From the NCBI RefSeq assembly GCF_000512735.1, contig NZ_CP007028.1:1-64000 (forward strand): DNA of 64,000 nt. Direction: 5' to 3'. Positions 25,782 through 35,561 of this stretch are shown here, piece by piece. The translations under genes and the position numbers were made by a program. This stretch comes from Thermocrinis ruber. Its GTDB lineage: Bacteria; Aquificota; Aquificia; Aquificales; Aquificaceae. How positions within the stretch are numbered: the stretch's first letter is position 1; each line of letters begins with the position of its first letter. The notes under the pieces were generated by a model. The model was not told where the DNA came from. It worked only from the letters and a program-made list of their open reading frames with translations, and did not search any database.

Positions 25782-26312
25782 ATGGCTGAAAGATTAGCCA
25801 TAATAGCCACAAAGGGCACCCTTGACATGGCCTATCCACCTTTGATCCTCGCCTCCACCGCCGCATCCCTCGGAGTGGAAACTGCCATATTTTTCACCTT
25901 TTATGGGCTAAACATTATCCACAAGCAGAAAATGCATCAGCTCAAGATTGCCCCCATCGGAAACCCAGCCATGCCTATGGCCTTTCCACCATCCATGCAA
26001 AACCCCATAACCAACGCCATATCCTCCATATTACCCGGACCTCCTCAAATAATGGGCATAATCCCCGGTATGACGGACCTTATGACTTATATGATGAAAA
26101 AGACCATAAAAGAGCACGGTGTGGCAGATATTCCAGAGCTTTTAGAAGCATGCAAAGAGGCAGGTGTAAAGCTCATACCCTGCCAGATGACCATGGAGCT
26201 CTTTGGCTACAAGTACGAGGACCTTATAGATGGTCTTGAGCCACCAGCGGGTGCAGCCACCTTCATTAACTACGTTTTAGAATCAGAAAAACCGATGATA
26301 ATCTTTGTATAA
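25782..26312 (+). CDS. dsrE3A: DsrE-family sulfur carrier (DsrE3A type)
   Basis: 176 aa DsrE/DsrF-like protein. N-terminal LAIIATKGTLDMAYPPLILASTAASLG and the membrane-looking Met/Pro-rich middle (IMGIIPGMTDLMTYMM) are typical of the DsrE3 branch. Cys124 and Cys134 (CKEAGVKLIPCQMTMELFG) are candidate persulfide-binding residues. Position directly after tusA and before the hdr genes fits a partner of TusA in moving sulfane sulfur into the sHdr pathway. Confidence 0.88.
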   Translation: MAERLAIIATKGTLDMAYPPLILASTAASLGVETAIFFTFYGLNIIHKQKMHQLKIAPIGNPAMPMAFPPSMQNPITNAISSILPGPPQIMGIIPGMTDLMTYMMKKTIKEHGVADIPELLEACKEAGVKLIPCQMTMELFGYKYEDLIDGLEPPAGAATFINYVLESEKPMIIFV

Positions 26313-26323
26313 GGAGGTTATAA

Positions 26324-26740
26324 ATGGCTTACGAAAAGGTACTCTTCTACATCCTTACTGTACCATTTTTTGTTAGGGCAGAGCCAGCCACTGGAGAGCT
26401 CATCAACCCCCAAGCTGGTGCTCCTTTCTTCCTGGCAACTGCTGCCGCCAGCATGGACTACGAGGTGGAGATGGTCATAACTTCCGAGGCTGGATTTTTG
26501 CTAATGAGGGATAACGCCAAAAAGGTAAAGGTAAGACCGGGTGTGGAGCAAACCGTCTATGACTTTATAAAGATGGCAAAGGACGCTGGTGTGAAGATCT
26601 ACCTCTGCGTGCCTTCTTTGGACCTCACAGAGGAGTATAAGAAAGAGGATGTGAACCCCGAACTGTGCGACGGTATTATAGGCGGTGCAGCCTTCTTGGA
26701 CAAGCTAATGAGCGGTGAGTATGCGGTCATTACCCTTTAA
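26324..26740 (+). CDS. DsrE-family protein (second copy)
   Basis: 138 aa. Shares the DsrE-like alpha/beta layout with its neighbour (APFFLATAAASMDYEVEMVIT, FIKMAKDAGVKIYLCVPSLDL) but is shorter and divergent. Cys95 sits where DsrE proteins carry the sulfur-binding Cys; a second Cys115 lies in ELCDGIIGG. AGGAGG precedes the ATG. It may correspond to the DsrE3B/C-type carriers reported in some sHdr loci, but I cannot assign the subgroup. Confidence 0.82.
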   Translation: MAYEKVLFYILTVPFFVRAEPATGELINPQAGAPFFLATAAASMDYEVEMVITSEAGFLLMRDNAKKVKVRPGVEQTVYDFIKMAKDAGVKIYLCVPSLDLTEEYKKEDVNPELCDGIIGGAAFLDKLMSGEYAVITL

Positions 26741-26859
26741 CTCTTCCCCCTTTTTACACACCTTTATAAGCTTATCCTTATATGCTTATAAGAAAAATTT
26801 AATTGCTTTTTCTGAGAAAGCTCATATGTTTATGCTTATTAATTGCAGGAGGTGATACC
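26741..26859. promoter_or_regulatory. Intergenic region upstream of hdrC1 with clustered palindromes
   Basis: The only sizeable gap inside the sulfur locus (119 bp). It holds ATAAGCTTAT (perfect palindrome, 26766-26775), CTTATAAG (perfect, 26785-26792), a GCTTT/AAAGC dyad (26805-26821) and a third GCTTAT at 26834-26839. Likely a separate promoter/operator for hdrC1 onward. The 20 codons open upstream of ATG 26860 are probably not translated. Confidence 0.5.
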
Positions 26860-27588
26860 ATGGATGGACACAATTATGGATATAACCTGCCCATCTCCGA
26901 GAAGACCAAGATGGTCCCTTGGGAAGAGAAAGTCAGGATCGTGGAAGAGGTAAAATCGGACTTTAGGTTTAAGGAATACATCTTTGGCTGTCTGAACTGC
27001 GGTGTTTGCACTGCATCCTGCCCATCCAACAGGTTCTTTGATTTCTCCCCACGGGAGATCGTCCAGAGGTTCTTAGAGGAAGATGTAGAGGTCCTCTACG
27101 ATATGATGCACGAATACATCTGGGCTTGCTCCCAATGCTTTACCTGTTGGATCAGGTGTCCCTTTGTGAATAATCCCGGTGGGCTTGTGGCAATAATGAG
27201 AGAAGTTGCGGTCCGCAACGCCTTTGAAGCAACAAAGGACCTTCTAAAACCTTACGGAAGGGTTCTGCTAAAGGTTATGACCACCGGAAACCAGCTATCC
27301 GCCGACATGCTACAGCCCGACTTCTTCCCCGACTGGGGTCCCAAGATGGCAGACAACATGGAAAACCTCAGGGCAAAGAGACTTGCCATTCCCTTTGATG
27401 TGGGTAAATCTGTGAAGACCGCTTGGGAAGTATCCTTGGAAACCGCCATAGAAATGTACACCATCTGGAGAGAGACGGGCATCTTTGAAATGTTAGAGAA
27501 GTTGGACCCCAACCTTTACAACGTCATAATGGACATTGTGGAGGAGAACGAAGAGAGATACCAAGAGCTCTATGGAGAGGAAGAATGA
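26860..27588 (+). CDS. hdrC1: sHdr complex iron-sulfur subunit HdrC1
   Basis: 242 aa electron-transfer subunit. Two ferredoxin-like [4Fe-4S] motifs: Cys45-xx-Cys48-xx-Cys51-xxx-Cys55 and Cys90-xx-Cys93-xx-Cys96-xxx-Cys100. It would pass electrons between HdrB1/HdrA and the rest of the sulfur-oxidising heterodisulfide-reductase-like complex, in the cytoplasm. ATG 26860 is set by AGGAGGTGATACC just before it; the frame opens earlier at 26803. A short hairpin separates it from hdrB1. Confidence 0.93.
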   Translation: MDGHNYGYNLPISEKTKMVPWEEKVRIVEEVKSDFRFKEYIFGCLNCGVCTASCPSNRFFDFSPREIVQRFLEEDVEVLYDMMHEYIWACSQCFTCWIRCPFVNNPGGLVAIMREVAVRNAFEATKDLLKPYGRVLLKVMTTGNQLSADMLQPDFFPDWGPKMADNMENLRAKRLAIPFDVGKSVKTAWEVSLETAIEMYTIWRETGIFEMLEKLDPNLYNVIMDIVEENEERYQELYGEEE

Positions 27589-27598
27589 GCTTACAAAA

Positions 27599-27611
27599 GG
27601 GCTTGAAGCCC
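27599..27611 (+). other. Small hairpin between hdrC1 and hdrB1
   Basis: GGGCT and AGCCC pair around a TGA loop (5-bp stem), followed by GAAAAAAC. Too weak and lacking a U-run for termination; may protect the 3' end of a processed hdrC1 message. Confidence 0.4.
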
Positions 27612-27635
27612 GAAAAAACTTAAGGAGGTGTTACC

Positions 27636-29000
27636 ATGGCACACGCCAAGTTAGAGTCTAAATGGGGCTATGTTAGCCCAGGGGGTATTCTCAGGTACCC
27701 CGAAGAGCCACCCTTCCCAGTGAAGGAGTATGACGCCCACTACGACCATATCTTTGAAATGATGGAAGAGCTGGAGGCTAAGGGCGAGATCCTCATACAC
27801 AGGATCACGGAGGAGCATCAACCCATACCCGTCTATACAAGGACTGGAAGGATCAAGCTCATCCCTACCAACAAGCTTTGGCACCACAAATCCTGCGGAC
27901 AGTGTGGAAACATACCCGGATATCCCGCTTCACTGTTCTGGTTTATGAACAAGTTTGGACTCGATTACCTTAACGAGCCTCACCAAACTTCCTGCACCGC
28001 TTGGAACTATCATGGTTCCGGAACTTCCAACCCCGTAGCCTTGGCTGCAGTTTGGCTCAGGAACATGCACCAAGCTTGGAAAACTGGGTACTATCCCCTC
28101 ATTCACTGCGGAACATCCTTTGGTTCTTACAAGGAAACCAGGGAACAGCTCATAATGAACAAAGAGCTCAGGGATGCGGTAAAGCCCATCCTCAAAAAGC
28201 TCGGAAGGCTAACAGAGGACGGAAGGATCGTTATACCCCAAGAGGTGGTTCACTACTCCGAGTGGGTCCACGCTATGAGATACAGGATCAAAGAACTCTA
28301 CGAAAAGGAAGGTAAGGCAAAGGGTATAGATGTCTCCAATGTTAGGGTTGCCATACACAACGCCTGCCATACCTACAAGATGATCGCCGACGACTATCCC
28401 TACGACCCAGAAGTTTACAACGGACAAAGACCTGCCGCATCCACCGCAGTTATAAAGGCACTGGGTGCCCAGGTGGTAGATTACTCCACATGGTATGACT
28501 GCTGTGGCTTTGGCTTTAGGCACATTCTAACCGAAAGGGAGTTCACCAGGTCTATGGCGATCCAAAGGAAGCTTAAGGTGATCGCAGAGGAAGTAAAGGC
28601 AGACGTAATCATTACCCACGACACGGGATGCACCACCACCTTTGAAAAGAACCAGTGGATCGGAAAGGCACACGGCATGTATTACCCTGTGGCGGTAATG
28701 TCCGATGTAATGTTTGCTGCACTTGCCTGCGGAGCTCATCCATTCAAGATTGTCCAGCTCTACTGGAACTGCTCCCACTACGAACCACTTCTTGAGAAGA
28801 TGGGCATCACCAACTGGAGAGAGCTCAAGAAGGAATGGGAAGACACCGTTAAGTACATCTCCGAGCTTGAAAAGGCTGGCAAGTATGACGAGCTGATGGA
28901 ATTCTTCAAGGAATACGACCTTTATGAGCCCTACAGCAAAACCTCCACAGGAAAGCCTAGGGCATCTGCCACTGCCAATATGCCATTGTTTAAGTCCTAA
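27636..29000 (+). CDS. hdrB1: sHdr complex subunit HdrB1
   Basis: 454 aa, longer than HdrB2 by about 135 residues through an N-terminal extension and a C-terminal tail. The two CCG-type domains are reduced: the first half has Cys87-xx-Cys90, a lone Cys120 (SCTAW in place of CCG) and Cys158; the second has Cys244, Cys289-Cys290 (DCCGFGFRH) and Cys332, without the final CxxC. It may therefore bind a different cluster from the canonical noncubane pair of methanogen HdrB. AGGAGGT precedes ATG 27636. Pairs with HdrC1 by position. Confidence 0.92.
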   Translation: MAHAKLESKWGYVSPGGILRYPEEPPFPVKEYDAHYDHIFEMMEELEAKGEILIHRITEEHQPIPVYTRTGRIKLIPTNKLWHHKSCGQCGNIPGYPASLFWFMNKFGLDYLNEPHQTSCTAWNYHGSGTSNPVALAAVWLRNMHQAWKTGYYPLIHCGTSFGSYKETREQLIMNKELRDAVKPILKKLGRLTEDGRIVIPQEVVHYSEWVHAMRYRIKELYEKEGKAKGIDVSNVRVAIHNACHTYKMIADDYPYDPEVYNGQRPAASTAVIKALGAQVVDYSTWYDCCGFGFRHILTEREFTRSMAIQRKLKVIAEEVKADVIITHDTGCTTTFEKNQWIGKAHGMYYPVAVMSDVMFAALACGAHPFKIVQLYWNCSHYEPLLEKMGITNWRELKKEWEDTVKYISELEKAGKYDELMEFFKEYDLYEPYSKTSTGKPRASATANMPLFKS

Positions 29001-29008
29001 GCTTTTTT

Positions 29009-29024
29009 GGGGGCTTTTGCCCCC
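29009..29024 (+). other. GC-rich hairpin between hdrB1 and hdrA
   Basis: GGGGGC and GCCCCC form a perfect 6-bp stem with a TTTT loop, then TTTAAT. It resembles a weak intrinsic terminator in mid-operon and could lower expression of hdrA and later genes relative to hdrC1-hdrB1, or stabilise the upstream transcript. Confidence 0.55.
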
Positions 29025-29054
29025 TTTAATAAACACTTTATAGGAGGTTTGGTT

Positions 29055-30113
29055 ATGGCAAAGAGTGTGCTGGTAATTGGTGGAGGACCTGCCGGTTTGG
29101 GAGCGGCAAGGATCCTTGGAAAGCTTGGTATACCAACTATCCTGGTGGAAAAAGAGGACAGGTTAGGTGGGAACCCTATCCTGAACCACTATCACACCCT
29201 CATACCCAGAAAGCTAAAGCCAGAGCAGGTGCTCGGTCCCTACATCAAGGAAGTTGAAAGCAACCCCAACGTGCAGGTCAAACTAAAGACGGAGCTTACC
29301 GCCTGTGAGGGAGAGCCCGGAAGCTACAAGGTTACCCTCTCCAACGGTGAAACCCACGAGGTGGGTGCTATAGTGGTTGCCACGGGCTTTGAGCACTTTG
29401 ACCCAAGGAGAAAGGGAGAGCTAGGTTATGGACTGTATCCGGACGTGATCACCAACCTAGAGCTTGAACAAATGTTCTCCAAGGAAGGAAGACTTTACAG
29501 ACCTTCAAACGGACAACTGCCAAAGAGGGTAGCCTTTGTTTTCTGTGTGGGTTCTCGGGACAGACAGCTGGGTGTAACCAACGTGCACTGCTGTAGATAT
29601 GGTTGTGCCCTGTCCGGTCTGCAGGCTATGGAAATAAGACAGCACTATCCCGATGTGGATGTCTTCTGCTACTACATGGATGTTAGAACCTACGGAACTT
29701 GGGAGTATCCCTTCTACTGGGCACCCCAAGAGCAGTATGGCGTAAGGTACGTAAGGGGTAGGATAGCGGAGATAACCTACAGCCCTGCAGACGGTAGGCT
29801 AAGGGTAAAGCACGAAGACACCATCGTCCAAAGACCTGCCGAAGTACCTATGGACTTGGTGGTCCTTGTGCTTGGTATGGAACCATCCGCGGGCACAAAG
29901 AAGGTAGCTAAAATACTGGGACTTGCTCAGGACCCAGACAGCAAGTTCTTGGTTCCATCCGAAGAGTCTGGCTCTAACATCATCTCCAACAAACCCGGTA
30001 TATTCATAGCGGGTGCCTGCAAGGGACCCATAGACATAGAGTCCTCCCTCTCCGAAGGTGAAGCGGCCGGTGCAGAGGCTGCAGCCTTCGTGGGTGCAAA
30101 GGTAACGGTATGA
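29055..30113 (+). CDS. hdrA: sHdr complex flavoprotein HdrA
   Basis: 352 aa FAD-binding subunit. The dinucleotide motif VIGGGPAGLGAARIL is at residues 7-21, ATGFEHFDPRRKGELGYG and a C-terminal IFIAGACKGPIDIESSLSEGEAAGAEAA (FAD domain) follow. Cys in FCVGSRDRQ and HCCRYGCALSG (about residues 164-184) can hold a [4Fe-4S] cluster. It lacks the N-terminal and ferredoxin extensions of methanogen HdrA, as is typical of sHdrA. ATG 29055 is fixed by AGGAGGT. Probably the flavin centre of the complex. Confidence 0.94.
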   Translation: MAKSVLVIGGGPAGLGAARILGKLGIPTILVEKEDRLGGNPILNHYHTLIPRKLKPEQVLGPYIKEVESNPNVQVKLKTELTACEGEPGSYKVTLSNGETHEVGAIVVATGFEHFDPRRKGELGYGLYPDVITNLELEQMFSKEGRLYRPSNGQLPKRVAFVFCVGSRDRQLGVTNVHCCRYGCALSGLQAMEIRQHYPDVDVFCYYMDVRTYGTWEYPFYWAPQEQYGVRYVRGRIAEITYSPADGRLRVKHEDTIVQRPAEVPMDLVVLVLGMEPSAGTKKVAKILGLAQDPDSKFLVPSEESGSNIISNKPGIFIAGACKGPIDIESSLSEGEAAGAEAAAFVGAKVTV

Positions 30114-30847
30114 AGAAACTTGCAGTTTTAGACGATTTTTTGGTTAGGGATTATCTCATAAAGATCCTCGGAGAGGGTGAGGAGTTTGTCCAAGAGTTTT
30201 ACAAGGACCTCCTCGCCAAGTCCCTCCTTTTCCAAAAGAGCTTGAGCAAGGAAAACCTTGCTTCTTTGAGCAAAGAAGACCTGGACCGCATCTTAGAAAA
30301 GGTATTCTCTGTGAGGAGAAAGAGACAAAGGCTCGTAGAAGAGACGGGCGTGGAAAATCTAAAAAGGGCTATAAGCGACCTGCTTTATGGAAAGGCTAAG
30401 AGCTGGGAAGAAAGGGTGGAAAATTTTGTAAAGTCCATAAAGGGTGTGGATAGAAAGGCAGCGAGGGACTTGGCGTCTGAGCTTTTGCACTTTACGTTCC
30501 CAGAGGATTATGTGCTGTGGACCAGCTGGATATGGGACCCCGAAAGTGAGAGCGGAGCGGTGGTCTTCCTCAAGGAGGAGCCCCCAAAGAGGCATATGTA
30601 CGGAGAAACCTACGAGGAGTTTGAACAGATCTACAAACAGATACAAGAGAAGCTCCTTGATTTTGGTATAAAGGTAAAGGGCTACCTTTTTGTAGATATC
30701 TTCCTTGCCATGATATACGCCACCTATGTGGATTACATGACGCTATCCACCATGCATAGCGCCAAGGGCTTTTTCCCACCGGCTGGTGTCATGGCAAGGA
30801 GACTTTTAGGTGTTCAAAGACCACAAGACATTGAATTGGAGGTTTAG
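30110..30847 (+). CDS. Conserved sHdr-associated protein of unknown function
   Basis: 245 aa, soluble, helical. It corresponds by position to the conserved gene that sits between hdrA and hdrC2 in sHdr loci and whose product has been reported with the Aquifex complex. Only one region stands out: FPEDYVLWTSWIWDPESESGAVVF and a C-terminal MIYATYVDYMTLSTMHSAKGFFPPAGVMARRLLG block. No Cys, so not an Fe-S protein. Starts with ATGA overlap on hdrA. A structural or assembly role is likely. Confidence 0.88.
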   Translation: MKKLAVLDDFLVRDYLIKILGEGEEFVQEFYKDLLAKSLLFQKSLSKENLASLSKEDLDRILEKVFSVRRKRQRLVEETGVENLKRAISDLLYGKAKSWEERVENFVKSIKGVDRKAARDLASELLHFTFPEDYVLWTSWIWDPESESGAVVFLKEEPPKRHMYGETYEEFEQIYKQIQEKLLDFGIKVKGYLFVDIFLAMIYATYVDYMTLSTMHSAKGFFPPAGVMARRLLGVQRPQDIELEV

Positions 30848-30849
30848 CC

Positions 30850-31608
30850 ATGGCAATACACGAAAGAAGCTTAGTAGAGCCAGAAAGAATTGTAAGGAAG
30901 GAAAGATTAGTTATTGACGGGGTGGATGTATCAGGAGACTGGAACCTGATCATCCTCCCTCGTGTGATCAACGATTATGACCTGGACTTTGCCAAGGAGA
31001 TCATAAACTCCCCAGACGGAAAGACCATAACCCTATGCTATCAGTGTTCATACTGTACCGCTTCTTGTCCGGTGCACAACTATTGGGATGAGCGGTACAA
31101 CCCAAGGCACTTTATATACTTGGCAAGGCTTGGGCTCATTGATGAGCTTCAAAAACGCGCGGATGTAATGTGGAGGTGCGTGTCCTGTCATAAATGCACC
31201 CACAGATGTCCAAAGGGTGTGCTGGTGGAAGAGGTGCTAAAGGTAATCCTCAGAACTATGGCGAAGAAGGGTCTCATAGACGAGTACCCTTCCAAGAAGT
31301 TTGACAAATTCTTTACCGAATCGGTCCTTGAGTACGGAAGGATAGAGGACGGAGAATTGCTCTTTGGTTGGATTGAAAAGCAAGGCTACAATGTGGTAAA
31401 GGACCCCATCCTGAAAAAGCCCATACCCTTCCTCGGAGAAACACCCGAGTGGCTAAAGCAGTTGGTAATGAAACCCATAAAGTCCATGAACATTAGCTTT
31501 TTGGTCCTGAACGCCAAGCACATGCTCTTCCATCCAAGGACCAAAAGTTGGAACAAGTTCAAGCAAGTTCTAAGAAAAGTTATGCAAGAAGAAGGAGCAC
31601 TAACTTAA
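30850..31608 (+). CDS. hdrC2: sHdr complex iron-sulfur subunit HdrC2
   Basis: 252 aa. Two [4Fe-4S] motifs: Cys63-xx-Cys66-xx-Cys69-xxx-Cys73 (CYQCSYCTASCP) and Cys110-xx-Cys113-xx-Cys116-xxx-Cys120 (CVSCHKCTHRCP). An N-terminal extension of about 55 residues (LIILPRVINDYDLDF) distinguishes it from HdrC1. It starts 2 bp after the preceding gene and is followed by hdrB2 after 12 bp, so it is the likely electron partner of HdrB2. Confidence 0.93.
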   Translation: MAIHERSLVEPERIVRKERLVIDGVDVSGDWNLIILPRVINDYDLDFAKEIINSPDGKTITLCYQCSYCTASCPVHNYWDERYNPRHFIYLARLGLIDELQKRADVMWRCVSCHKCTHRCPKGVLVEEVLKVILRTMAKKGLIDEYPSKKFDKFFTESVLEYGRIEDGELLFGWIEKQGYNVVKDPILKKPIPFLGETPEWLKQLVMKPIKSMNISFLVLNAKHMLFHPRTKSWNKFKQVLRKVMQEEGALT

Positions 31609-31620
31609 GGAGGTATAAAG

Positions 31621-32580
31621 ATGGGTGTTATTGGTAAAAGGGTTGCCTATTATCCAGGTTGTTCCTTAGAGGGTGCCGCGAGGGCTTATGATGTATCCAC
31701 CAGAATAGTGGCAAGGGAGCTAGGTTTGGAGCTGGATTATCTGGAAGATTACAACTGCTGTGGTGCAATGGAGTCCAAGAATATTACCTTTATGGGCACC
31801 TTGCTTTTGAACGCTCGGAACATGTCTTTGGCAAGAAAGCAAGGGCACGATGTGATCGTGGCACCCTGCAACGGATGTTCTTTCTCCCTGCAGAGGGCAG
31901 AATACTTCTTGCAAACGGACAGCAAAATCTTTGAAAGGGTCAATGCCCTTCTCAAAGAAGGTGGTGTGGACCCCTTGGACAAAATTCCTGAGACCTATCA
32001 CATCCTAGAGTGGTTCTATCACGAGGCAGGACCTCAGAAGGTAAAGGAGAAGACCAAAAGACCCCTCAGAGGGCTAAAGGTTGCCAACTATTACGGATGT
32101 CTTTATACAAGACCTCACTTCTATGCTAGGACGTACTCCCACGCAGGTGGTCAAAGTGAAGAGGCAAGACCAAGGAGAAGGGAAACTGCCGATGACGACG
32201 AACATCCCTACTACATGAATGCCCTTTTGGAGGCTGCGGGCGCTACCAGTGTAGAGTTTGAGCCCATGCATACCCAGTGCTGTGGAGGACCACACTCTCT
32301 GTCTGACGAGCAAGTATCTGAGAAGTTTGTTATGATGATCCTGCAGACCGCCAAGAGAAATGGTGCAGACATTATAGCTACCGAATGCCCCCTCTGCCAC
32401 GCATCTCTGGAGATGTACAGACACAGGCTCATGATGAAGGGCGTGCCCGATGTGGATGTGCCCGCCGCGTACTTCACACAACTCTTGGGCTTGGCTTTTG
32501 GATACAGCGCCAACGACGTTAAGCTGAAGGATAACCTTTCGGACCCTCTGCCCGTGCTAAAGAGGCTTGGGTTGGCTTGA
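31621..32580 (+). CDS. hdrB2: sHdr complex subunit HdrB2
   Basis: 319 aa. Both CCG domains are complete: Cys14, Cys46-Cys47, Cys83-xx-Cys86; and Cys160, Cys220-Cys221, Cys256-xx-Cys259. This is the Cys pattern that binds the noncubane clusters which make and break disulfides in HdrB, so HdrB2 is the likely catalytic site. A charged insertion (about residues 176-196, with EARPRRRETADDDE) lies between Cys160 and Cys220. AGGAGGT precedes ATG. Confidence 0.94.
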   Translation: MGVIGKRVAYYPGCSLEGAARAYDVSTRIVARELGLELDYLEDYNCCGAMESKNITFMGTLLLNARNMSLARKQGHDVIVAPCNGCSFSLQRAEYFLQTDSKIFERVNALLKEGGVDPLDKIPETYHILEWFYHEAGPQKVKEKTKRPLRGLKVANYYGCLYTRPHFYARTYSHAGGQSEEARPRRRETADDDEHPYYMNALLEAAGATSVEFEPMHTQCCGGPHSLSDEQVSEKFVMMILQTAKRNGADIIATECPLCHASLEMYRHRLMMKGVPDVDVPAAYFTQLLGLAFGYSANDVKLKDNLSDPLPVLKRLGLA

Positions 32581-32589
32581 GGCGGAAGA

Positions 32590-33045
32590 ATGGAAAAGGA
32601 GTGGGAATATAACGGCTGTATAATCCCACTGGACCTGTACTACGAGATAGAAACCCAAACGTGGTTGAGGATAAACGAAGATGGGACTGTGACAATGGGT
32701 CTTACGGATGTGGGGCAGGTCCGGGCTGGGCGCCTGCTCCACGCCCGTATAAAGGACGTGGGTAAATACATAAAGAAGGGAAAGCCGGTGGCATCCCTTG
32801 AAAGTGGTAAGTGGGCGGGACCCATAAACGCCCTAGTGGAAGGAGAGGTGGTGGAACGCAACGAAAAGGTTTTAGAACAGCCAGACATAATAAACTACGA
32901 CCCTTACGGAGAGGGCTGGATCGTGAGGATGAAGCCGGTGGACTTGGAAAGGGACCTAAAGGATCTGCTCTATGGACCCCAAGCCATAGAAAAGATGAGA
33001 GAATACATAGATGAATGGGACATAATCTGCATGAGGTGTACGTGA
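32590..33045 (+). CDS. lbpA: Lipoate-binding protein LbpA (GcvH-like), first copy
   Basis: 151 aa GcvH-fold protein. Lys74 in LESGKWAGP is the predicted lipoylation site (GcvH normally has ESVKAxSD-type context); VGQVRAGRLLHARIKDVG and YDPYGEGWIVRMKP are the flanking family blocks. In sulfur oxidisers with sHdr, LbpA carries the lipoyl group on which sulfur is processed, instead of serving glycine cleavage; no gcvP/gcvT is nearby. The tail ends CMRCT, an extra CxxC absent from the second copy. Confidence 0.93.
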   Translation: MEKEWEYNGCIIPLDLYYEIETQTWLRINEDGTVTMGLTDVGQVRAGRLLHARIKDVGKYIKKGKPVASLESGKWAGPINALVEGEVVERNEKVLEQPDIINYDPYGEGWIVRMKPVDLERDLKDLLYGPQAIEKMREYIDEWDIICMRCT

Positions 33046-33302
33046 TGGCGGCAAAGGACAAACATGTGATCCTTTTGGTCTCTCAATGGTGTGCCACATG
33101 TCCCGATGCGGACGCCCTCTGGCAAAAACTCCAAAAGGAGTATGGTTTTAAGTATGAAGTTTTGGATGTGGCACAGCCGGAGGGTAGAATGTGGGCAAAG
33201 AAGCTCGTAATTAGGGCTGTCCCCTCCACCATCATAGACGGAAAGCTTGCCTTTGTGGGCGTCCCGTCAGAAGAGGAGGCAAGGAGGGCTATAGAGTCGT
33301 GA
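33045..33302 (+). CDS. Small thioredoxin/glutaredoxin-like protein
   Basis: 85 aa thioredoxin-fold protein with redox motif CATC (Cys16, Cys19; VSQWCATCPDADALW), the cis-Pro region RAVPSTIIDGKL and a short C-terminus, like archaeal mini-thioredoxins. ATG 33045 overlaps the lbpA stop as TGATG. Located among lbpA and dsrE genes it may reduce persulfides, dihydrolipoyl intermediates or the DsrE carriers; the exact partner is not shown. Confidence 0.87.
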   Translation: MAAKDKHVILLVSQWCATCPDADALWQKLQKEYGFKYEVLDVAQPEGRMWAKKLVIRAVPSTIIDGKLAFVGVPSEEEARRAIES

Positions 33303-33688
33303 AGGTTGTGATCCTTATGACCAGCGGACCCAGAACTCCCTGGAGATGTGCGTCGCCCTTTTACATTGCTGCGTTGATGGCTTCCAACGACGCAGAGGTG
33401 GAAATGTTTTTCAATATGGATGGAACAAGGCTCCTGAAAAAGGGTGTGGCAGAGAGGATTTTGCCCGCAGAGCCAAACTGTTTGAGCGTCAACGGAAAGA
33501 AGTTGAAGACCGTTTACGATTTTATGAAGGACGCTAAGCAGGCAGGAGTTAAGTTCTACTCCTGTAAGCAGGCTATAGACGCTTTAGGTTACAAGCCGGA
33601 GGAGCTGATCCCAGAGCTGGACGGTATTGTGCCGGCCAGTGAGTTCGCCCTCAGGGCGATGGAGGCAGATAAAGTAATCACCTTTTAA
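33299..33688 (+). CDS. DsrE-family protein (third copy)
   Basis: 129 aa. DsrE-like core: ILMTSGPRTPWRCASPFYIAALMA, AEVEMFFNMDGTRLLKKGVAE, FMKDAKQAGVKFYSCKQAIDALG. Cys89 occupies the DsrE active-site position; Cys17 and Cys61 are additional. GTG start overlaps the preceding stop (GTGA). Lying between the two lbpA genes, it could deliver sulfur to or take it from lipoyl-LbpA; subgroup unresolved. Confidence 0.83.
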   Translation: MKVVILMTSGPRTPWRCASPFYIAALMASNDAEVEMFFNMDGTRLLKKGVAERILPAEPNCLSVNGKKLKTVYDFMKDAKQAGVKFYSCKQAIDALGYKPEELIPELDGIVPASEFALRAMEADKVITF

Positions 33689-33712
33689 AAATCTTATAAA
33701 GGAGGGTATAGC

Positions 33713-34159
33713 ATGGCAGTAGTGAATGGGTGCAACATACCCGAGGACCTGCTTTACGATGTGGACCCAGAGGCCAATGCCTTCACATGGGCAAAGGACA
33801 ATGGAGATGGCACCTTTACCATAGGGCTAACGTCCATAGCGGCCGCAATGGCTGGAAGGCTCGTTGCCTACACTCCCAAGAAGCCCGGCAGGGTGATAGA
33901 AAGGCGTAAAAGTGTAGCCACCATAGAAAGCGGTAAGTGGGTGGGACCCGTGCCTACGCCTCTAACCGGTGAGATAGTGGAGATAAACGAAGCCCTCAAG
34001 ACAAACCCCGCCTTGGTAAACGATGACCCCTACGGTCAAGGTTGGATCGCCAAGATAAAGCCCACCAATCCTGAAGAAATCAATCTACTGCTTAAGGGAC
34101 AGGCAGCTGTGGATGCCCTAACAAAGGTAGCCAACGAAAAGGGTATAAAGTGCGGATAA
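33713..34159 (+). CDS. lbpA: Lipoate-binding protein LbpA (GcvH-like), second copy
   Basis: 148 aa paralogue of the gene at 32590. Lys75 in IESGKWVGPVPTPL is the predicted lipoylation site; NDDPYGQGWIAKIKP is the family block. The two copies differ widely outside these blocks, so they are probably specialised rather than redundant. Strong Shine-Dalgarno (AGGAGGGT) precedes ATG. The last 10 bp overlap the radical-SAM gene. Confidence 0.93.
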   Translation: MAVVNGCNIPEDLLYDVDPEANAFTWAKDNGDGTFTIGLTSIAAAMAGRLVAYTPKKPGRVIERRKSVATIESGKWVGPVPTPLTGEIVEINEALKTNPALVNDDPYGQGWIAKIKPTNPEEINLLLKGQAAVDALTKVANEKGIKCG

Positions 34160-35157
34160 TTCAAAACCTTGAGGGGGTCTCTTCCCCCCTCGATCAAGAA
34201 CTTTTAGAGGAGCTCTTTGAAGGTTTCAAGGTAAGGGAAGAGAACTTCGGGAAGAAGGTTTATTTTTATAGCCCTGGCTTCAAGCACTACCAAGTGGAAG
34301 ACTTTTACGTAGCCACTGGTCCAAAGTTTGTGGATGTTTCCATAACGGGTAAAAACTGCGAGCTTATGTGCGACCACTGTGCGTCCAAAATCCTCTGGCA
34401 CATGATTCCCGCCACCACACCGGAGGAGCTAAAAAGGGTTGGAGAGGAGCTAAAAGCCAAAGGTATTGAAGGCATACTAATATCTGGCGGTTCCAACAAG
34501 GACGGAGTGGTAGAGCTCTACCCTTTCTTTGAAGCCATTGCTTATCTCAAAAAGGAGCTGGGATTGATCACCACCTGCCATGTGGGACTTGTAGACAGGG
34601 AACTGGCAAAGGGCCTAAAAAAAGCCGGCGTAGATGCAGTACTTATGGATGTGATAGGAGATGATAGGACCATAGCGGAGGTTTATAAACTGCCCCATAA
34701 GTCCGTGAAAGATTACGAGGAATCCCTGGCACTTCTTAAAGAATACAACCATAAGATAGTGCCCCATGTGATCATTGGACTCCACTATGGGAAGATCTTG
34801 GGTGAATACAGGGCAATAGACATGATCTCTAAGTTTGACCCAGATGGTCTGGTTTTAGTGGTAGTTATGCCCTACTACGGAAAGGCAAAGTTCCAACTTT
34901 TACCCCCACCCACGCCGGAGGAATGTGCAAAGGTCTTTTTGCACGCAAGGTTGAAACTACCAAAGACGCCGGTGGTTATCGGCTGTGCAAGACCTGCAGG
35001 ACCTGAGAGGATCAAGATGGACCTCTATGCCCTCTATGCGGGCGTCAATGGTATAACCTTCCCCGCAGAAGGTATTTTAACCCACGCTAAAGAGATAGGT
35101 CTGGAGCCAGTTGTATCTCCAAACTGTTGCTCAACGGTAATACTGCCTATAAATTAA
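34150..35157 (+). CDS. Radical-SAM protein, candidate lipoyl-synthase component (LipS2-like)
   Basis: 335 aa with the radical-SAM CxxxCxxC motif at Cys70, Cys74, Cys77 (GKNCELMCDHC), ISGGSNKDG as the SAM-contacting GGxP-like loop, and Cys residues in GCARPAG and PNCCST that could bind a second cluster. GTG start overlaps lbpA. Because it follows a lipoate-binding protein gene, a role in inserting sulfur to form lipoyl groups (as for the LipS1/LipS2 pair) is the best guess. The partner and the lipoate ligase are not in the window. Alternative: another sulfur-insertion or biotin-synthase-like enzyme. Confidence 0.8.
   Translation: MRIIQNLEGVSSPLDQELLEELFEGFKVREENFGKKVYFYSPGFKHYQVEDFYVATGPKFVDVSITGKNCELMCDHCASKILWHMIPATTPEELKRVGEELKAKGIEGILISGGSNKDGVVELYPFFEAIAYLKKELGLITTCHVGLVDRELAKGLKKAGVDAVLMDVIGDDRTIAEVYKLPHKSVKDYEESLALLKEYNHKIVPHVIIGLHYGKILGEYRAIDMISKFDPDGLVLVVVMPYYGKAKFQLLPPPTPEECAKVFLHARLKLPKTPVVIGCARPAGPERIKMDLYALYAGVNGITFPAEGILTHAKEIGLEPVVSPNCCSTVILPIN
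34171..34191 (+). other. Strong hairpin at the start of the radical-SAM gene
   Basis: GAGGGGG and CCCCCTC form a perfect 7-bp stem around a 7-nt loop, 21-41 nt after the GTG start. It could slow translation or transcription into this last gene and lower its yield relative to lbpA. Confidence 0.55.
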
Positions 35158-35162
35158 TAACC

Positions 35163-35561
35163 ATGCAGATGAAGGTTTTTGATTTAGACACCGCAAGAGA
35201 GACCTTAGTTGTAATCAAGCCCATAGTGGAAGAGATAAACACCAAGAGAATGGAGCTAACGGAAGCTTATGAAAGACTTCAGGAGGAGCAGGACCCCCTT
35301 GAAAGGATGTATCTAGAATCCCACATAAAGGACCTGGAAGCGCTAATAGACTCCCTTTTTAGAAAGATAGAAGCACTGGGCGGAGTGATAAAGGGTATAG
35401 ACCCAATACTGGTGGATTTCTTGAGCTTTCATAAAAACAGATACATCTGGCTCTGCTGGAAAGAGGACGAAGATACCATAATGTACTGGCATGAGCTGAA
35501 CGAGGGCTTTGCGGGTAGGAAACCAATAAGCCTTTTGGAAGAGGAAGAGGATATGCTATAA
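35163..35561 (+). CDS. DUF2203-family protein
   Basis: 132 aa. The family blocks are plain: FDLDTARETLVVIKPIVEEI, LGGVIKGIDPILVDF and ICLCW-like YIWLCWKEDEDTIMYWHELNEGFAGRKPI. Function unknown; DUF2203 proteins are small, soluble, helical proteins found in many bacteria. ATG 35163 lies 5 bp after the radical-SAM stop, so it may be co-transcribed with the sulfur locus. A promoter for the next gene lies in its last codons. Confidence 0.85.
   Translation: MQMKVFDLDTARETLVVIKPIVEEINTKRMELTEAYERLQEEQDPLERMYLESHIKDLEALIDSLFRKIEALGGVIKGIDPILVDFLSFHKNRYIWLCWKEDEDTIMYWHELNEGFAGRKPISLLEEEEDML

Follow-up and report, generated by a model that had tools for sequence, protein, structure and literature searches.

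A LipS1-type radical-SAM protein encoded beside two lipoate-binding proteins in the sulfur-oxidation operon of Thermocrinis ruber, its dispersed predicted partners and a fused lipoate ligase

The first 64,000 bases of the complete 1,521,037-base chromosome (1.52-Mb genome) of Thermocrinis ruber, hereafter the window, contain an operon for the sulfur-oxidising heterodisulfide reductase-like (sHdr) system at 25782-35561. Near its end lie two genes for lipoate-binding proteins, lbpA1 and lbpA2, and a gene for a radical S-adenosylmethionine (SAM) protein at 34150-35157. We propose with high confidence that this last gene is lipS1 and that a lipoate ligase, LipS2 and LipS1, acting in that order, would yield lipoyl-LbpA for the sHdr complex; this confidence applies to the three-enzyme sequence, and the role of the additional domains fused to the ligase is graded separately below.

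On its sequence, the product of 34150-35157 is LipS1. Against the NCBIfam hidden Markov models (HMMs), it scores 223.9 bits for LipS1 (NF053742), 30.3 bits for BioB and 20 bits for LipS2, with no match to LipA; the curated cut-offs are 230 bits for LipS1, 225 for bioB and 270 for LipS2. In a 45-protein tree that has some long branches, LipS1 (support 100/99) and LipS2 (97/96) form mutually separate clades, and the window protein falls within LipS1 rather than in an unrelated radical-SAM family, the outcome that would have spoken against the original prediction. Scores and tree together rule out an identity as BioB, LipA or LipS2. The CxxxCxxC motif and the late cysteines in GCARPAG and PNCCST, to which that prediction had pointed, correspond to C70/C74/C77, C279 and C326/C327. 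The radical-SAM cysteines are invariant in all 27 LipS1 sequences compared, as are the putative auxiliary-cluster ligands H206, C279, C326 and C327, which by order and spacing correspond to H159, C230, C276 and C277 of Thermococcus LipS1, where the ligands are C27/C31/C34, H159, C230, C276 and C277 (PMC9585515). The LipS1 model match starts at residue 58 of the window protein, which has a longer N terminus. In an AlphaFold2 model (mean pLDDT 84, with the radical-SAM motif loop poorly modelled) the best structural matches are BioB and HydE. The closest named relatives by this protein are Thermocrinis metagenome-assembled genomes, at 94-97% identity, and a plasmid search with LipS1 as query gave no match. 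The original prediction was thus right to place the protein among the LipS1/LipS2-type lipoyl synthases and wrong to count LipS1 as the absent partner: since the protein is itself LipS1, the partner missing from the window is LipS2.

The operon runs from two DsrE genes through hdrC1-B1-A-Hyp-C2-B2, lbpA1, a thioredoxin-like gene, a further DsrE gene and lbpA2 to the radical-SAM gene and a DUF2203 gene, as follows:

25782-26740 (25782-26312 and 26324-26740), + strand: two DsrE-family sulfurtransferase-like genes opening the sHdr cluster; open reading frames, with the order kept beside shdr at three other loci (L146, L147, L152)
26863-32580, + strand: hdrC1, hdrB1, hdrA, sHdr-Hyp (30110-30847), hdrC2 and hdrB2; open reading frames, with the order kept in relatives
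32590-33045, + strand: lbpA1, lipoate-binding protein; Pfam GCV_H, alignment and tree
33045-33302, + strand: thioredoxin-like gene (Thioredoxin_3) whose start overlaps the lbpA1 stop; Pfam PF13192, 49.9 bits
33299-33688, + strand: DsrE-family gene between lbpA1 and lbpA2; Pfam PF02635, 58.8 bits
33713-34159, + strand: lbpA2, lipoate-binding protein; Pfam GCV_H, alignment and tree
34150-35157, + strand: predicted lipS1, radical-SAM lipoyl synthase with a GTG start; LipS1 HMM, ligands, clade and BioB/HydE fold
35127-35561, + strand: DUF2203 gene that begins before lipS1 ends; Pfam PF09969, 129 bits

Both LbpA1 and LbpA2 have the GcvH fold (Pfam GCV_H, 134.9 and 136.1 bits, respectively). As had been read from the window, both keep ESGKW around the lipoyl lysine, K74 in LbpA1 and K75 in LbpA2, and only the first ends in CMRCT; LbpA2 ends in KCG. 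In alignment, both show the features of sHdr-type LbpAs, with NGC near the N terminus and a C-terminal cysteine (in CMRCT or KCG) in addition to ESGKW; the N- and C-terminal cysteines of sHdr LbpAs are absent from GcvH (PMC6067878). The CMRCT terminus is not a matter of chance, as it is invariant in all six aligned LbpA1 copies and in all three LbpA1 proteins of a genus without LipS1 (g10). The overlap between lbpA2 and lipS1, also part of the original prediction, amounts to 10 bases and is shared by a further member of the genus and by genomes from three others; because the genes overlap, lipS1 is probably translationally coupled to lbpA2. This conserved linkage, together with the HMM score, ligand set and clade, argues that LipS1 most likely serves LbpA.

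Two further GcvH-like proteins are encoded elsewhere in the genome. An orphan third LbpA-type protein with ESGKW, LbpA3 (1,345,082-1,345,522, - strand; L030:7083-7523), lies outside any sHdr operon, and most Aquificaceae genera have best matches to it at 75-89% identity that are likewise outside the sHdr operon; in genus g5, the best match is the operon LbpA1 only. The other (474,255-474,776, - strand; L031:6256-6777) has a twin-arginine translocation (Tat)-like N terminus (RRFLLKF), carries VEAGKR in place of ESGKW and adjoins genes that, on inspection, look FdhE-like and formate dehydrogenase-like.

The 64-kb window holds neither a ligase nor a second lipoyl synthase, as the original prediction had noted, and both are found elsewhere in the same genome. 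LipS2 is encoded far from lipS1, at 1,092,002-1,093,117 (206 bits, under its curated cut-off of 270), and carries its own conserved ligand set of C55/C59/C62, C104, H207, C310 and C319. All five genomes of a sister genus, g4, have both genes inside the sHdr operon, with lipS2 some 0.7 kb past lipS1 (by coordinates, with two of the clusters read out), and the same small protein of 96-97 amino acids that follows lipS2 there also follows it in T. ruber. The g4 gene between lipS1 and lipS2 is, by sequence inspection, a HAM1/RdgB-type nucleotide hydrolase, which we treat as a passenger. Several genomes outside Aquificota have lipS1 and lipS2 adjacent or near each other. Because g4 links both genes in the sHdr operon, with the same small protein trailing lipS2, we conclude that lipS1 and lipS2 belong together and that lipS2 has become unlinked in the T. 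ruber lineage. Canonical LipA (121,327-122,196), which presumably serves GcvH, and a genuine BioB (1,148,101-1,149,141; 390.5 bits) are separate genes. Directly after bioB lies a gene for a 212-amino-acid LplA/B-catalytic-domain protein (1,149,141-1,149,779; L024:7142-7780), possibly a biotin- or lipoate-transferase relative. The best T. ruber match (31%; 750,242-751,252) to a LipT-like flavoprotein encoded next to an LplAB-DUF116 gene in another genome (G165) is of a family widespread in genomes without LipS2, and we claim no LipT for T. ruber.

The search of the genome for an Lpl(AB) ligase, suggested with the original prediction, led to an unusual multi-domain fusion of 729 amino acids at 1,030,306-1,032,495. 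Its domains are LplA (residues 13-214), LplB (264-345), DUF116 (379-439) and a domain resembling the CODH/ACS epsilon subunit (573-723). The catalytic part has LplA motifs (RRITGGGAIYFD and GRKISG in alignment; PF21948, 160 bits), the LplB model gives 41 bits, under its 65-bit cut-off, and the catalytic domain is about 50% identical, by pairwise identity, to the ligases of G144 and G287, two genomes from a different family outside the phylum whose ligase genes stand between lipS1 and lipS2. DUF116 is matched weakly (22.6 bits, below the cut-off of 25), whereas the epsilon-like domain scores 118 bits; the last ~155 residues are 37% identical to a protein of the same genome (1,177,895-1,178,602) encoded directly before genes for subunits of the pyruvate/2-oxoglutarate:ferredoxin oxidoreductase (PFOR/OGOR) type. 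The full-length LplA-LplB-DUF116-epsilon-like fusion recurs across Aquificaceae. Outside the phylum, three genomes have LplAB-DUF116 fusions that lack the epsilon-like domain: in G144 and G287 within the cluster lbpA-lbpA-lipS1-[LplAB-DUF116]-lipS2, and in a third family (G165), where a 3.3-kb contig (L180) carries in a row a TusA-like gene, the fusion and a gene for a LipT-like flavoprotein, with functions assigned by inspection. When 390 genomes were searched with the DUF116 portion, matches came from these three and from Aquificaceae only, all sharing the cysteine pattern PYCxKxxxC...CxxCxxC...GxCC...CY.

Two Aquificaceae genera depart from this arrangement. In genus g5 (G033), the fused gene (L177:6544-8547) has a decayed ligase half, only 33% identical to that of T. 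ruber and with SRLSGQA replacing RRxTGGG, yet identity is still 83% over DUF116 and 68% over the epsilon-like part; a separate stand-alone LplAB with intact motifs (L176:6393-7424) could take over catalysis. In genus g3 (G018), ligase and DUF116/epsilon-like module are two neighbouring genes. Co-occurrence was tallied by hand in 35 near-complete Aquificaceae genomes (at least 94% complete), every one of which carries sHdr. Across these genomes LipS1 and the DUF116 module always agree: 32 have the two together, three (G058, G060 and G061) have neither, and a LipS2 turned up in 31 of those with LipS1. The decayed ligase half in g5, the split genes in g3 and the co-occurrence with LipS1 suggest that the DUF116/epsilon-like module may have an independent function connected with LipS1/S2.

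In the proposed pathway, the Lpl(AB)-DUF116-epsilon-like ligase would attach octanoate to K74 and K75 of apo-LbpA1 and apo-LbpA2, LipS2 would then insert sulfur at C8, and the window LipS1 would complete the cofactor with a second sulfur at C6, so that lipoyl-LbpA becomes available to the sHdr complex. The identities of LipS1 and LipS2, their conserved catalytic cysteines and histidines, the operon linkage and the co-occurrence are all established at the sequence level. The reaction order and substrates are modelled on the Thermococcus and proteobacterial systems, for which biochemistry and genetics are available (PMC9585515, PMC10332631, PMC6067878). In the Thermococcus pair, LipS2 acts on the octanoyl substrate and LipS1 only on the 8-mercaptooctanoyl substrate (PMC9585515); by this analogy, the earlier suggestion that the window enzyme sulfurates octanoyl-LbpA would be one step off. 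The C-terminal module of the ligase would most likely help LipS1 and LipS2 with electrons or Fe-S clusters; electron supply, cluster repair and docking are all candidate jobs.

Several observations weigh against this pathway. The window LipS1 falls just under its curated cut-off, which is exceeded in 36 of the 53 Aquificota genomes that have any match (maximum 243.6 bits). LipS2 was not found in G043, the one exception among the 32, although scoring there covered just 5 of the 11 candidates. Genus g10 (L194/G060, L195/G061 and L196/G058; 99% complete), in which no LipS1, LipS2 or ligase-DUF116 module was found, retains LbpA1, LbpA2 and the rest of sHdr, so that LbpA can persist without the LipS1/S2 pathway. 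The three LipS1-less genomes, all of this one genus, probably represent one loss, and the co-occurrence, being mostly one loss in one lineage, is not statistically independent. LipA is encoded in the same genome and might itself lipoylate LbpA. Maturation of LbpA mainly by canonical LipA, with LipS1/S2 devoted to a different carrier, for example the orphan LbpA3, would accommodate the presence of LipA and the retention of LbpA1, LbpA2 and LbpA3 in g10. We nevertheless consider it unlikely, given the 10-base lipS1/lbpA2 overlap in several genera, the presence of LipS1/S2 in g5, which has no orphan LbpA3 match, and the finding that the canonical machineries of Escherichia coli and Bacillus do not modify LbpAs (PMC6067878, PMC10332631). 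Since the T. ruber sHdr operon has just one lipoyl synthase-like gene, its product might instead carry out both sulfur insertions on octanoyl-LbpA, an option that the original prediction had set beside the use of genes elsewhere. The genome does supply those genes, LipS2 and the ligase, and the LipS2 orthologues in 31 of the 32 near-complete relatives that bear LipS1, the linkage of the two synthase genes in g4 and outside the phylum, and the restriction of Thermococcus LipS1 to the 8-mercapto substrate (PMC9585515) together make a lone enzyme very improbable. Still harder to credit is a role outside lipoate synthesis, with the protein being biotin synthase-like or some other radical-SAM sulfurtransferase: the nearest solved structure has a BioB fold and there is a weak bioB HMM match (30 bits against 225), but the genuine BioB is a separate gene, and the LipS1 score, ligands, clade and lbpA linkage all point elsewhere.

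A further alternative concerns the module only. The DUF116/CODH-epsilon-like part could have been joined to the ligase by accident and contribute nothing to lipoyl assembly, as fusion partners may be passengers; among LipS2-positive genomes of other phyla the module occurs only in G144 and G287, and no DUF116 match was found in the lipS2 neighbourhoods of the rest. However, the module is kept throughout LipS1-bearing Aquificaceae and gone from g10, was conserved in g5 while the ligase half decayed beside an intact LplAB, and stands as a neighbouring gene of its own in g3. An accident accordingly seems to us a minority possibility, though one of some weight. Our specific proposal for the module is itself tentative: it may be a dedicated auxiliary part of the LipS1/S2 pathway, scaffolded by the ligase and standing in for LipT, that brings low-potential electrons or replacement clusters, with DUF116 as a cysteine-rich and possibly Fe-S unit and the epsilon-like domain as a homologue of the PFOR/OGOR delta subunit.

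Among the remaining operon genes, the thioredoxin-like and DsrE-like genes between the lbpA copies (33045-33302 and 33299-33688) are kept even in g10, and they probably serve sulfur delivery rather than lipoyl assembly. The DUF2203 gene also lies downstream of lipS1 in G037 and G051 and is a probable operon passenger. Among 136 Aquificota, sHdr-Hyp was found in Aquificaceae only.

Earlier work has already described LipS1 in Aquificota as well as the sHdr-LbpA-LipS1/S2 pathway (PMC6067878, PMC10332631), and Aquificae appear there as group I and, for LipS1/S2, as a monophyletic cluster. The present analysis settles the assignment of the window gene as lipS1 and describes a pathway that is complete but dispersed in T. 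ruber, with lipS1 and lipS2 together in the g4 operon. The less expected part is the ligase fusion conserved across Aquificaceae, which points to DUF116 as a lipoyl pathway component. A link between DUF116 and lipoate was not found in the open-access papers searched, nor were the fusion and its co-occurrence with LipS1/S2 in their article text. The split genes of g3, the decayed ligase half beside a conserved module in g5 and the whole-set loss in g10 serve as natural experiments; the module offers a concrete candidate for LipS1/S2 electron supply and the rebuilding of sacrificed clusters, and g10 bears on whether LbpA needs LipS1/S2 at all.

The T. ruber proteins resemble LipS1/LipS2 of Thermococcus kodakarensis (TK2109/TK2248; PMC9585515) in the radical-SAM motif, the three auxiliary cysteines plus histidine and the presence of LipS2 in the genome. 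Unlike in that pair, LipS1 is N-terminally longer and encoded in a sulfur-oxidation operon, and lipS1 and lipS2 are far apart. With two LbpA types, an sHdr operon, LipS1, LipS2 and an Lpl(AB)-type ligase, the system is like the sLpl(AB)-LipS1/S2 pathway of sHdr sulfur oxidisers (Cao 2018, PMC6067878; Tanabe 2023, PMC10332631). The maturation genes of group I, including Aquificae, were described as lying strictly in the same operon (Cao 2018, PMC6067878); in contrast, the T. ruber operon has lipS1 only, and the rule fails for this genome, which also has no clear LipT. The ligase also differs in carrying DUF116 and the CODH/ACS-epsilon-like domain, of which we found no mention in the main texts of PMC6067878 and PMC10332631. 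The C-terminal part of the ligase is paralogous to the delta subunit, likewise CODH/ACS-epsilon-like, of the five-subunit PFOR/OGOR of Aquificaceae, the function of which has been called intriguing (PMC10052474); delta is a separate subunit there, whereas in T. ruber the epsilon-like domain is fused to a lipoate ligase.

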